Shown: positions 18,577 through 25,878 of the stretch, in pieces | Numbering within the stretch: the first letter of the stretch is position 1 | Layout of the letters: each line of letters starts with the position of its first letter | IMG/VR virus record: IMGVR_UViG_3300032322_001358 | Span: 1-25,878 of that record | DNA length: 25,878 nt | Direction: 5' to 3' (one strand) | Source: a virus | Made by a program: the position numbers and the translations under genes | Notes under the pieces: generated by a model | What the model saw: the letters and a program-made list of their open reading frames with translations, nothing else | Database searches by the model: none | What the model was told of the DNA's origin: nothing

Positions 18577-20180
18577 GCTGCCCTCCTGTGCCGACGACCG
18601 ACGATTTCAAAGTATTTGCCGTTCGGCTTGACGCGGATTTCGTCAGGCGGGTTGATCTCGTCCTGCCGCTCTAGCGCCTCATCAACAGTGGATGGTGGAG
18701 CGGTGCCGGCTAGCCGTTGCCACCATTCGCGCGCCTTGGTGAGCGCGTATCCGGGCTCGTGCTCAAAGCACAACCACTCCCGATAGACCTGAAGCCCAGA
18801 TCCATATTCAACGCGAAACGTGGGGGGAGAGCCGGGCTTGTTGTGCTTGAAATAGCGCACGTCCTCTATCGGAACCCATACGGGCGGCTCGGTTGAAAGG
18901 ATCGCCACCGCAGCGTCCGCCTTGGCCTCGTGCTTGGGAGTTTCCGCCGCCTTCGGCCATTCATGGGCGCACGTCGGACACGTCCGGGTGTTGAGCGCCA
19001 CAAGCGTCATGCACGAGGGGCATTCCTTTGCCCTCACGTCCGCCTCTTTGGCTGTACCCTCGCCAGCGGAGCCGCCGTTGCCGACAGTGATCGCATCAAC
19101 CGGGCCATGCCTGCGCACATTGCCGGCGAAGTCCAAAATCAAGGCGTCTTGCTTAGATGGTGCCAAGCGAGTTGCCCTGCCCACCATCTGAAGATACAAG
19201 CCACAACTTAAAGTTGGTCTTAACATAGCCACAAGATCAGTGGCAGGCGCATCGAATCCGGTTGTCAGCACCGAGACATTCGTCAAGCACCGCAGCGCGC
19301 CGGACTTGAAATCCCGCAAGATGCGGTCGCGCTCGCCTGTCGGGGTTTCGCCCGTGACCATCTCGCACGAGACCCCGCGCGCTCGCATGGCATCGCGAAC
19401 GTGCTCGGCATGTTTGACACCGGAACAGAACACCAGCCACGAGCGCCGATTTTCGCCCATGCTGACGATCTCGGATACCGCCTCTTGCGTAATCCAGTCC
19501 TGATCGACGGCAGCTTGTAGCGCGCTTTCAACAAACTCCCCGCCTCGCTTGGCAACGCCCGACACATCAAGCGTGCGAGCGGTCGCCTTGCTGATGAGCG
19601 GCGATAGATAGCCGTCATCAATGCCCTGCCGAATGCCGTAGTCGAAAACCATATCGTCAAAGAGCCGGTCAGACCCTTGGTCTAGCCGCCCGCTATCGAG
19701 ACGAAACGGGGTGGCAGTGAAGCCAACCACCCGCATGTCAGGGTTTGCCTTTCGCATGGTGGCGAGAAACGTCCGGTACATCCCATCGCCCTTGCGGGGC
19801 GTTAAATGCGCCTCATCAATCATCACCACGTCGCGAGAGCCAATCGAATAGGCATCCTCGCGAAAGATCGATTGAATGGACGCGAACAACACGGATTGAC
19901 GCCGGTCGCGTCGTCCAAGTCCGGCAGAGTTGATGCCGATATTTGCGCTCGGATGGTTTCGCAAAAGCGCTTGGGCATTTTGCGCCACAAGCTCTCGGCT
20001 ATGCACAAGCATGATGATGCGAATATCGGGATTGATCGTCTCTAGCTCTTTGACGAGCCCGGCAATCACCACGGACTTGCCTGTTCCGGTTGCCATGGAC
20101 ACCAGCGGGTTGCCGCCGCCTGCGCTCCAATAGTCAATAACGGATTGGATGGCCTGGGATTGGTAGGGTCGGAGGCTCAC
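18573..20180 (-). CDS. SF2 DEAH-box helicase with zinc ribbon
   Basis: 535 residues. Motif I ATGTGKS (30-36), motif II DEAH (122-125), motif III TATP (155-158), motif V TTGFDAP (307-312) and motif VI QMVGRATR (331-338) are all intact, so it should be an active ATP-driven helicase. A zinc ribbon follows with Cys387, Cys390, Cys401 and Cys404. The C-terminal region (VRYFKHNKPGSPPTFRVEY, EWWQRLAG) is shared by phage and bacterial helicases of this type. It overlaps the upstream nuclease gene by ATGA, suggesting that the two act together in replication or recombination. Confidence 0.93.
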   Translation of the reverse strand: MSLRPYQSQAIQSVIDYWSAGGGNPLVSMATGTGKSVVIAGLVKELETINPDIRIIMLVHSRELVAQNAQALLRNHPSANIGINSAGLGRRDRRQSVLFASIQSIFREDAYSIGSRDVVMIDEAHLTPRKGDGMYRTFLATMRKANPDMRVVGFTATPFRLDSGRLDQGSDRLFDDMVFDYGIRQGIDDGYLSPLISKATARTLDVSGVAKRGGEFVESALQAAVDQDWITQEAVSEIVSMGENRRSWLVFCSGVKHAEHVRDAMRARGVSCEMVTGETPTGERDRILRDFKSGALRCLTNVSVLTTGFDAPATDLVAMLRPTLSCGLYLQMVGRATRLAPSKQDALILDFAGNVRRHGPVDAITVGNGGSAGEGTAKEADVRAKECPSCMTLVALNTRTCPTCAHEWPKAAETPKHEAKADAAVAILSTEPPVWVPIEDVRYFKHNKPGSPPTFRVEYGSGLQVYREWLCFEHEPGYALTKAREWWQRLAGTAPPSTVDEALERQDEINPPDEIRVKPNGKYFEIVGRRHRRAA

Positions 20181-24146: not shown

Positions 24147-24277
24147 CACAGCACCGCCTTGAGCGTGTCGAATGCGAGATGCGTCACCGCAAACACCGCA
24201 CCAAACGCGGCGAATAGGCCGACCGTGGCGAGCGTGACGCCGAACGCGCCAAGCACAAAGTCAAGGGTTCTGCTCAT
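24146..24277 (-). CDS. 43-residue membrane protein
   Basis: Starts at the ATG at 24277, which overlaps the Cro-like stop by ATGA and has AGGAG eight bases upstream; the longer frame to 24388 lies inside that gene. Nearly the whole product is hydrophobic (FVLGAFGVTLATVGLFAAFGAVFAVTHLAF), one long or two short spans. It is coupled to the following 47-residue membrane protein by TGATG. Function unknown. Confidence 0.75.
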   Translation of the reverse strand: MSRTLDFVLGAFGVTLATVGLFAAFGAVFAVTHLAFDTLKAVL

Positions 24278-24477
24278 CGCGCAGGCTCCTGTTCTGATAG
24301 AAAATCGTTGGCCGTCACGAGCCCGTTTGTCGCCGCGATAATCCGCCGCATTTGCTCCGGGCGCGGCGTGCGAGCACCAGCCAGCCAAAGCCGGACAGCC
24401 TCAACCGAAACGCCAAACGCTTGCGCGGCATCCGTTCGGGTCAGCTGGTGAGTTTGAAGGTAGTCGCTGAGGGTCAT
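24274..24477 (-). CDS. Cro-like XRE helix-turn-helix regulator
   Basis: 67 residues from the ATG at 24477 (MTLSDYLQTHQLTRTDAAQAFGVSVEAVRLWLAGARTPRPEQMRRI). This is a clear Cro/C1-type helix-turn-helix in the order helix-TRTDAAQAFGVSVEAVRLWLAG-P-E. It faces the repressor gene across an operator pair. No ribosome site is seen. The start lies about seven bases after the -10 candidate, so the mRNA may be leaderless; an ATG at 24483 would fall against the -10. It likely promotes lytic growth by shutting off the repressor. Confidence 0.85.
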   Translation of the reverse strand: MTLSDYLQTHQLTRTDAAQAFGVSVEAVRLWLAGARTPRPEQMRRIIAATNGLVTANDFLSEQEPAR

Positions 24478-24483
24478 GCCCAT

Positions 24484-24512
24484 AACAAACAACAAATCGT
24501 TGTATCAGTCAA
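24484..24512 (-). promoter_or_regulatory. Leftward early promoter
   Basis: On the minus strand TTGACT (24512-24507), 17 bases, then TTTGTT (24489-24484); TGTTAT one or two bases on is an alternative -10. The -35 touches one operator and the -10 touches the other, so a bound repressor would block it. It has the same architecture as the promoter at 25290-25318. Confidence 0.6.
24489..24503. promoter_or_regulatory. Operator, ACAAC-AAATC-GTTGT
   Basis: A perfect 5-bp dyad with five central bases between the Cro-like and repressor genes. Its centre is 23 bp from the next operator. The same word occurs at 25276 and 25299. Confidence 0.75.
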
Positions 24513-24526
24513 CAACAATTTTTTGT
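24512..24526. promoter_or_regulatory. Operator, ACAAC-AATTT-TTTGT (one mismatch)
   Basis: Second operator of the pair; the right half is TTTGT instead of GTTGT. Centre-to-centre distance to the first operator is 23 bp, equal to the other pair. Confidence 0.65.
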
Positions 24527-24560
24527 TTGGATTGAACATGAGTGAAAAGCACAATGCGGC

Positions 24561-24803
24561 ATGTCGAAAAAACCCCAAAAAACGGACATTCCGCTGTGGG
24601 CTAAACGCCTATCGCGTGCACGTGCGCGAAAATTCCCTACCGCGCTGGCGTTTGCGGAGTTCATGGGGCTGTCACAGCAACGCTATGGCTACTATGAAAT
24701 AGGGCGTAGCGAGCCTGACTATGAATTGCTCATACAGATATGCGTTGCCCTAGAGGTTTCGCCTAATTACATTCTCATGGGGAGCGAGGCCATGGCCGCA
24801 TAG
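24561..24803 (+). CDS. XRE-family repressor (CI-like, short)
   Basis: 80 residues. The HTH is visible in TALAFAEFMGLSQQRYGYYEIGRSEPDYELLIQICVALEVSPNYILMG, with the typical end LLIQICVALEVSPNYILMG. It lacks the C-terminal peptidase domain of lambda CI, so induction must work by other means. It is divergent from the Cro-like gene and preceded by the paired operators. No strong ribosome site precedes the ATG. It is the best candidate for the protein that binds ACAAC-N5-GTTGT. Confidence 0.85.
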   Translation: MSKKPQKTDIPLWAKRLSRARARKFPTALAFAEFMGLSQQRYGYYEIGRSEPDYELLIQICVALEVSPNYILMGSEAMAA

Positions 24804-24819
24804 CTCCAAAGGGGGCTTT

Positions 24820-25203
24820 ATGCGTCGATTGGCTTTATTGGCGTCTCTTTCGATCATGATGGGCTGTCAGACGAACCCGCAACAAACAGAGGACCCGCCT
24901 ATCTGGGGGCGCTTTGACTGCCAGCGCCAAGCGGACAATCCGGCGCTAATGTCTGAGTTTGAGCAAGCGCGCATCATTTGCACTGGTCGAGCCGAAGCCC
25001 AAGCGCGCGCTGCCGCTGCATCTGTCGCGCCTGGTTACGGCATGGGCGGCGCAATCGCAGCGGGATTCGAGCGGTCAGTGGTTGCCCAGCAAGTGGGGGT
25101 CCCCGCCGTCATGTCGTGCATGGCAGAGCGCGGATACACGCGAGCGCCGCGCGCTGCTCACGAGGCGAGGTGCGCGGCAGTGCCGTCGACCCCGCGCCGA
25201 TAA
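24820..25203 (+). CDS. Predicted lipoprotein downstream of the repressor
   Basis: 127 residues, AAGGGGG before the ATG. The N-terminus MRRLALLASLSIMMGCQTN is a lipoprotein signal with the modified Cys at 16 (MMGC lipobox). The mature part is Ala-rich with four further cysteines, AAASVAPGYGMGGAIAAGFE in the middle and a polar tail. It lies 17 bases after the repressor gene in the same direction, so it is probably expressed in the lysogen, like many prophage surface or exclusion lipoproteins. Family not recognised. Confidence 0.8.
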   Translation: MRRLALLASLSIMMGCQTNPQQTEDPPIWGRFDCQRQADNPALMSEFEQARIICTGRAEAQARAAAASVAPGYGMGGAIAAGFERSVVAQQVGVPAVMSCMAERGYTRAPRAAHEARCAAVPSTPRR

Positions 25204-25275
25204 CCACACTATCCCATCAGAATCGCTACAACTTTTAAAGCCGGCTACAACTAGAACAAAGAGCGAACGCATCTG

Positions 25276-25290
25276 ACAACATTTTGTTGT
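25276..25290. promoter_or_regulatory. Operator, ACAAC-ATTTT-GTTGT
   Basis: Perfect dyad matching the operators of the switch region; its last T is also the first base of the TTGACC -35 box. Confidence 0.75.
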
Positions 25291-25318
25291 TGACCTCTAC
25301 AACGAAATGTTGTTTACT
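25290..25318 (+). promoter_or_regulatory. Promoter of the repeat-protein gene
   Basis: TTGACC (25290-25295), 17 bases, TTTACT (25313-25318). Both boxes abut or overlap operators, exactly as at the leftward early promoter. Confidence 0.6.
25299..25313. promoter_or_regulatory. Operator, ACAAC-GAAAT-GTTGT
   Basis: Perfect dyad located between -35 and -10; centre 23 bp from the preceding operator. Confidence 0.75.
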
Positions 25319-25347: not shown

Positions 25348-25878
25348 ATGGCACGCAAGCCAAAGACGCCAGACGAGCCCGCGATTATCGCGATCAAGGG
25401 CTTTGACAAAGACCTGAAGTGCCGTGGCTATCAGTTCGAGCCCGGCAAGACCTATACCCACGAAGGCAAGGTGGCGGTCTGCGAAAGCGGGTTCCACGCC
25501 TGCCCGGATCATCCGCTTGACGTTTTCGAGTTCTATTTCCCCGCTGGCAGTCGATATTTTGAGGTGTCGCTAAGCGGCGATTACCAGAAAAAAGAAACCA
25601 AAATTGCCGCCGCGCAAATCTCGCTCTCTGTCGAGTTGACAATTCCTGATCTGGTCCATCGCGCATGGAGCTATGTTTGGTCGCGCGCTACCGTTGAAGA
25701 TGGTGCGTCTGCTACAGGCACCCGAGGCGCAGCGTCTGCTACACGCTACCAAGGCGCAGCGTCTGCTACAGGCGACCAAGGCGCAGCGTCTGCTACAGGC
25801 TACCAAGGCGCAGCGTCTGCTACAGGCTACCAAGGCGCAGCGTCTGCTACAGGCTACCAAGGCGCAGCGTCTGCTACA
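25348..25878 (+). CDS. DUF7666-like protein with 9-residue tandem repeats, 3' end outside window
   Basis: 177 residues are visible from the ATG at 25348, with GGAG about seven bases upstream; the frame continues past the window. Residues 1-115 form a globular part, IIAIKGFDKDLKCRGYQFEPGKTY ... CESGFHACPDHPLDVFEFYFP, a pattern found in phage and bacterial proteins with similar repeat tails. From residue 118 a repeat G-[Y/D/T]-[Q/R]-GAASAT runs six full times to the end of the window. The repeats are Ala/Gly/Ser/Thr-rich and would suit a beta-solenoid. Function is unknown. It is the only plus-strand gene here controlled by the shared operator pair. Confidence 0.82.
   Translation, partial: MARKPKTPDEPAIIAIKGFDKDLKCRGYQFEPGKTYTHEGKVAVCESGFHACPDHPLDVFEFYFPAGSRYFEVSLSGDYQKKETKIAAAQISLSVELTIPDLVHRAWSYVWSRATVEDGASATGTRGAASATRYQGAASATGDQGAASATGYQGAASATGYQGAASATGYQGAASAT
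25717..25878 (+). repeat. 27-bp tandem repeat, six copies, coding
   Basis: Copies start at 25717, 25744, 25771, 25798, 25825 and 25852, and a partial unit (25699-25716) precedes them. The unit is GGC-NNN-NNN followed by the invariant 18 bases GGCGCAGCGTCTGCTACA. The last three copies are identical. Variation is confined to codons 1-3 of each unit. The array runs beyond the window. Confidence 0.95.

Follow-up and report, generated by a model that had tools for sequence, protein, structure and literature searches.

Near one end of a viral DNA of 25,878 bp, which is the entire viral record and is called the window here, two pairs of similar palindromes stand at two promoters that point away from each other, with the gene of a short XRE protein lying between them. 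The locus raises the question of whether one repressor governs both promoters and, if so, what this says about the repeat protein of the uncharacterised DUF7666 family that is encoded behind one of them. Our analysis makes it very probable that the two pairs are the operator regions OR and OL of a compact immunity region of the lambda type, and the features on which the argument builds are named below according to this reading.

24274–24477, minus strand: Cro-like XRE protein, 67 aa from the ATG at 24477; first gene of the putative PR operon
24484–24512, minus strand: candidate PR promoter; -35 TTGACT at 24512–24507, -10 candidate TTTGTT at 24489–24484
24489–24503, minus strand: putative OR proximal operator, ACAACGATTTGTTGT, exact ACAAC-N5-GTTGT; fills the -35/-10 spacer
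24512–24526, minus strand: putative OR distal operator, ACAAAAAATTGTTGT, one mismatch to ACAAC-N5-GTTGT; overlaps the -35
24561–24803, plus strand: XRE/HTH_3 repressor, 80 aa (Pfam HTH_3, E 6e-8), without an S24 cleavage domain
24820–25203, plus strand: small lipoprotein-like ORF, 127 aa, with an MMGC lipobox; between the repressor gene and OL
25276–25290, plus strand: putative OL distal operator, ACAACATTTTGTTGT, exact; overlaps the -35; identical in the OL of a related phage, L059
25290–25318, plus strand: candidate PL promoter; -35 TTGACC at 25290–25295, -10 TTTACT at 25313–25318
25299–25313, plus strand: putative OL proximal operator, ACAACGAAATGTTGT, exact; in the -35/-10 spacer
25348–25878, plus strand: repeat protein of the DUF7666 family (GAASATG repeats); first gene after OL, incomplete because the contig stops here

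Operators, promoters and genes in the window

All four sites lie where the first-pass annotation had placed them, and the equal spacing it had described, 23 bp centre to centre with TGAC plus four bases between the sites, holds at both pairs. This TGAC is the tail of a TTGAC -35 element standing in the same register at OR and OL, the first T of the element being also the last base of the distal operator. Both candidate promoters have a -35/-10 spacer of 17 bp and -10 boxes that are T-rich but weak, and a strict scan for sigma-70 promoters and terminators found none, PR and PL included. A search of the full record for ACAAC-N5-GTTGT recovered three exact sites, where 0.015 are expected by chance in 25,878 bp, and only one site with at most one mismatch (at 19203) beyond the four; 0.5 sites of the latter kind are expected, and none of 100 shuffles reached five. 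A search against Rfam gave no match.

The product of the first gene behind PR matches HTH_3 (E 1e-4) and, as a 73-aa frame, the repressor family phrog_35 (E 3e-11). The minus-strand arm continues with VRR-NUC, Sak4-like and Cas4-type recombination genes and a helicase, and farther along with the genes for the terminase large subunit, portal, capsid, tail tube and tape measure. On the other side, the assignment of the repeat-protein gene to DUF7666 is firm (PF24703, E 1e-31, 109.7 bits against a curated cut-off of 27; phrog_4433, E 9e-69). A near copy of the window, IMGVR_UViG_3300033571_017558 (L005, L049 and also L125), is 99.98% identical to it. Both contigs stop inside the 27-bp repeats of the DUF7666 gene (25700–25878 in the window), so that this gene is incomplete in each; their shared right end is an assembly limit and not a genome end. 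No integrase gene was found in the window, a fragment that ends inside DUF7666, before the rest of the PL arm.

The switch in related phages and the protein that probably reads it

Searching with the Cro-like protein, we found three related phages (L059, L208 and L210) in addition to the near copy. Each has one operator pair directly before cro and a second 0.4–0.5 kb away, beyond the repressor gene, with a spacing of 22–23 bp within the pair. The half-sites (ACAAC in L059, AGAAC in L208, CCAAC in L210) are shared by OR and OL of a given phage but change from one phage to the next, which is the behaviour expected of immunity-specific operators. L059 is especially close to the window: the Cro-like proteins are 51% identical, a relative of the 24561 repressor is present, and its OL has the same distal operator and the same GTTGTTTACTCC. 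The OL promoters align through xxAACATTTTGTTxx. The cro ATG follows OR by 12–13 bases in all four phages (24477–24489 in the window, where the distance from the proximal operator is 12 bases, 1056–1068 in L059, with the same ATG spacing, and ~3988–4001 in L208 and L210); since this leaves so little room, the cro mRNA of the window is probably leaderless, and the recurrence implies conserved leaderless cro mRNAs. Behind OL the relatives vary: a search of the L059 contig for DUF7666, run without a positive control, gave no match, and other ORFs stand there, as they do in L208 and L210. In two more distant relatives, L211 and L212, no ACAAC-type sites of this kind were seen.

Scanning viral contigs for ACAAC pairs showed two outward-facing pairs in L043, L048, L055, L059 and L067. 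ACAAC-type OR and OL pairs 0.5–3.3 kb apart, spaced internally by 22–25 bp, were observed in L043, L048/L094, L055/L110, L067/L071, L069 and L070, and some of the repressors in this set have QE (SQESARKWLEGES) in place of QQ. A scan of genome contigs for the 23-bp ACAAC pair returned 12 loci, mostly from unrelated bacteria. Five loci (L114, L118, L119, L121 and L124, from Kibdelosporangium, Actinosynnema and Rhodococcus genomes) carry ACAACCGGCGGTTGT / ACAACCGCCGGTTGT pairs at 23 bp, and these half-sites, identical across genera, look like a conserved chromosomal regulator site.

As to the protein that reads the operators, the recognition helix of the 24561 product, LSQQRYGYYE, calls to mind the repressor of phage 434, in which a helix with Gln-Gln meets half-sites starting ACAA and Gln28 and Gln29 read the ACA. 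The likeness has its bounds: the half-site here is ACAAC with a 5-bp centre, there is no close overall sequence similarity, and the closest solved structure in a PDB search was the C2 repressor of P22, not that of 434. QQ at the positions of 434 Gln28/29 occurs in 22 of 34 XRE proteins near ACAAC pairs versus three of 55 elsewhere, and, when HMM seed loci are left out, in 17 of 27 versus two of 41 (p 2e-7), in a set of loci chosen for holding ACAAC pairs and including related phages that are not fully independent. This association lends indirect but specific support to the 24561 product as the reader, and it offers a simple rule by which operators can be predicted for metagenomic phages that have short XRE repressors.

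The Cro-like protein should bind the operators as well. Its helix reads EAVRLW where the half-sites contain CAAC (window, L059 and L210) and KAVSHW in L208, where they contain GAAC, and this parallel change is what one would cite in favour of the Cro-like protein being the true reader, with the XRE protein working elsewhere. We regard such an exclusive role as improbable, given that the XRE protein has the 434-like glutamines that accompany ACAAC sites over many loci, and that CI and Cro of lambda share their operators, which turns the matter into one of sharing and not of exclusivity; probably both proteins bind, as in lambda. Still more remote, and in our estimate close to negligible, is that the palindromes are chance occurrences or the site of a host regulator. 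ACAAC-N5-GTTGT pairs do occur at other spacings in many contigs, a few of the matches being tandem repeats, but neither chance nor a host site fits with the excess of exact sites in the window, with the same spacing and promoter register recurring at both places and in relatives, or with the conservation of double pairs in L059, L208 and L210. That one repressor, most likely the XRE protein at 24561, controls both promoters, as first proposed from the window itself, is now well supported by the common operator class, the double pairs of the relatives and the association of QQ with ACAAC.

DUF7666 genes behind left operators

To place the gene behind OL in context, we surveyed the best 80 viral matches to DUF7666 together with five phage records; the fractions given for these 85 loci should not be read as population frequencies, and diverged sites escape the operator search, many of the loci having no detectable operators. 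In L006, which apart from the near copy is the closest DUF7666 relative, the operators are of an entirely different kind, GTAGGG-N4-CCCTAC: one pair lies between an ORF in the Cro position and an S24-type CI, and a second pair stands around a TTGACA directly before DUF7666. In an unconstrained search, two matching operator pairs were found in 16 of the 85 loci and in none of 85 randomised sequences; in five of the 16 the sites belong to the repeats of the DUF gene itself, and in the other 11 they all lie upstream of it. Gene starts directly behind recurring operators comprise seven of 85 for DUF7666 versus 37 of 1973 for other ORFs (p 0.002), most of the 37 being switches of the same phages, so that the position of DUF7666 is not random. 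Inspection by eye located OL 65–125 bp before DUF7666 in nine loci (L125, which is the near copy of the window, L128, L137, L141, L150, L152, L172, L182 and L186), although in L137 and L172 the repressor side yielded a single matching site, and 0.5–3.4 kb upstream in about 12 further loci. L181 was dismissed as a direct case, no convincing promoter or repressor being found there. Apart from L161/L169 and part of L147/L151, the switches of the loci read in this way are unrelated in DNA, and most of the repressors scanned in DUF7666 phages have an S24 domain.

A similar order is found in Salmonella phage SEN22 and in Pseudomonas phages of the Hollowayvirus type, where cro on the minus strand and cI on the plus strand are followed on the cI strand by DUF7666 and then by early genes such as exonucleases. 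They differ from the window in having at least one gene between cI and DUF7666; in SEN22, a P22-type phage, N and a superinfection exclusion gene precede DUF7666 in the PL operon. An integrase gene was found in four of ten DUF7666 records, in all four on the strand of DUF7666 and downstream of it, which suggests that in relatives the DUF7666 arm, unlike the head and tail arm, leads to integration.

OL might instead serve mainly the regulation of the repressor, as a reservoir for OR or its partner in looping, in the manner of lambda, with DUF7666 as exchangeable cargo that is controlled only incidentally. The variable gene content behind OL in L059 (with the reservation about the search stated above), L208 and L210 fits such a role, as does the distance of 0.5–3.4 kb between OL and DUF7666 in many phages. 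We nevertheless consider it rather unlikely, since DUF7666 stands directly behind OL in nine loci with unrelated switches and the short repressor of the window lacks a known looping domain. What the same variability does remove is the need for the earlier idea that the operator pair had been copied specially for the repeat-protein gene, because OL normally accompanies OR, is kept in L059, where the contig gave no match to DUF7666, and is followed by different genes in different phages.

Returning to repressor control of the DUF7666 gene, the first place behind the left operator appears to be a recurrent address of this family in unrelated phages. Whereas the switch itself is textbook, what our analysis adds is this regulatory address for a widespread family, for which the literature searched yielded no mention: in many temperate phages that are unrelated to one another, its genes resemble early genes under repressor control, and the search for their function is thereby narrowed to the opening minutes of an infection or an induction. 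We suggest, tentatively, that DUF7666 proteins may be a recurrent first-expressed product of PL operons in temperate phages, in switches that are independent of one another and whose operators and repressors are unrelated; if so, they would have an immediate-early job, for instance in host takeover, counter-defence or tuning of the decision between lysis and lysogeny.

Folding of the L006 protein was useless from the single sequence (pLDDT 34) and reached pLDDT 82 with 27 sequences. Compared with the PDB, this fold had no match better than E 0.9, and among viral folds it matched other DUF7666 proteins, giant-virus repeat proteins and, weakly, a T4-like RIIB (E 2e-3); we discarded RIIB as kin, T4 RIIB being without DUF7666 according to Pfam. 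In L148 (8001–8888) the DUF7666 frame shifts within the repeats from GAASATG to GRGQCDRH, suggesting a frameshift, a sequencing error or slippage in the array.

The locus as a probable immunity region of the lambda type

The layout of an OR/OL system is present in the window: two operator clusters of the same class flank the repressor gene and overlap outward candidate promoters, the Cro-like gene comes first behind PR, and the repressor gene is divergent from it. Seen directly are the four sites and how they are spaced, the outward promoters, and a gene order that recurs; from these we infer binding by the named repressor, repression and timing as follows. In a lysogen the 24561 repressor would be made, and its dimers would bind both operators of OR and both of OL; with the distal operator on the -35 and the proximal one in the spacer, the bound repressor would block RNA polymerase at PR and PL. 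PR would drive leftward transcription of the Cro-like gene and then of the recombination, terminase, head and tail genes, and PL rightward transcription of the DUF7666 gene and then probably of early genes ending in an integrase gene. The Cro-like protein, as the first PR product, would probably bind the same sites and shut the repressor off.

The DUF7666 protein is likely to be early and repressed in the lysogen, and it may serve lysis, lysogeny or defence. The first-pass annotation had made it part of the lytic programme, which is too strong, because DUF7666 heads the arm opposite to that of replication, head and tail genes; in lambda-like phages the PL-type arm carries early genes of recombination, exclusion and integration. 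Induction of the SOS type and OL–OR looping as in lambda are not expected, because the 80-aa repressor has neither an S24 cleavage nor an oligomerisation domain. Its induction must then differ from that of lambda, and an antirepressor or a Cro-driven process are possibilities.

With lambda the window shares divergent early promoters flanking the repressor gene, Cro first behind PR, operators at the -35 and in the -35/-10 spacer and, in its relatives, recombination and integration genes behind PL. The operators of lambda are also about 23–24 bp apart, close to the 23 bp found here. The differences are a distance between OR and OL of 0.8 kb versus ~2.3 kb, a short repressor lacking S24, DUF7666 as the first gene behind PL and a different operator sequence. 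Lambda has three operators per side (PMC5880393) versus two in the window, and a lambda-related phage with fewer operator sites is known (PMC4488713). No separate site within three mismatches that could be a third operator, OR3, was found between 24526 and 24561, nor were PRM and OR3 found near the repressor start. An OR3 for PRM and a RecA/S24-cleavable repressor are lambda traits not seen in the window, and the OR/OL layout needs neither.

The lipoprotein-like ORF at 24820–25203, which had no match in Pfam, PHROG or phage records, occupies the position of the rex genes of lambda. Small lipoprotein-like genes also stand between the repressor gene and OL in L127 (5451–5987) and L172 (6641–7243), and genes at this position are candidates for exclusion genes expressed in the lysogen. 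A lipoprotein gene at this place did not emerge as a general feature, with two among 75 ORFs inside the interval versus 12 among 1672 outside (p 0.12).

Operators divided between two places are known from the telomere phage N15 as well, in whose immB region the CB repressor occupies OR sites at cro as well as two OL sites upstream of repA, at a promoter some way off. N15 and phiKO2 have three OR sites and PY54 has one, and the cro mRNA of PY54 is leaderless (PMC4488713), as the 12 bases between operator and ATG suggest for the window.
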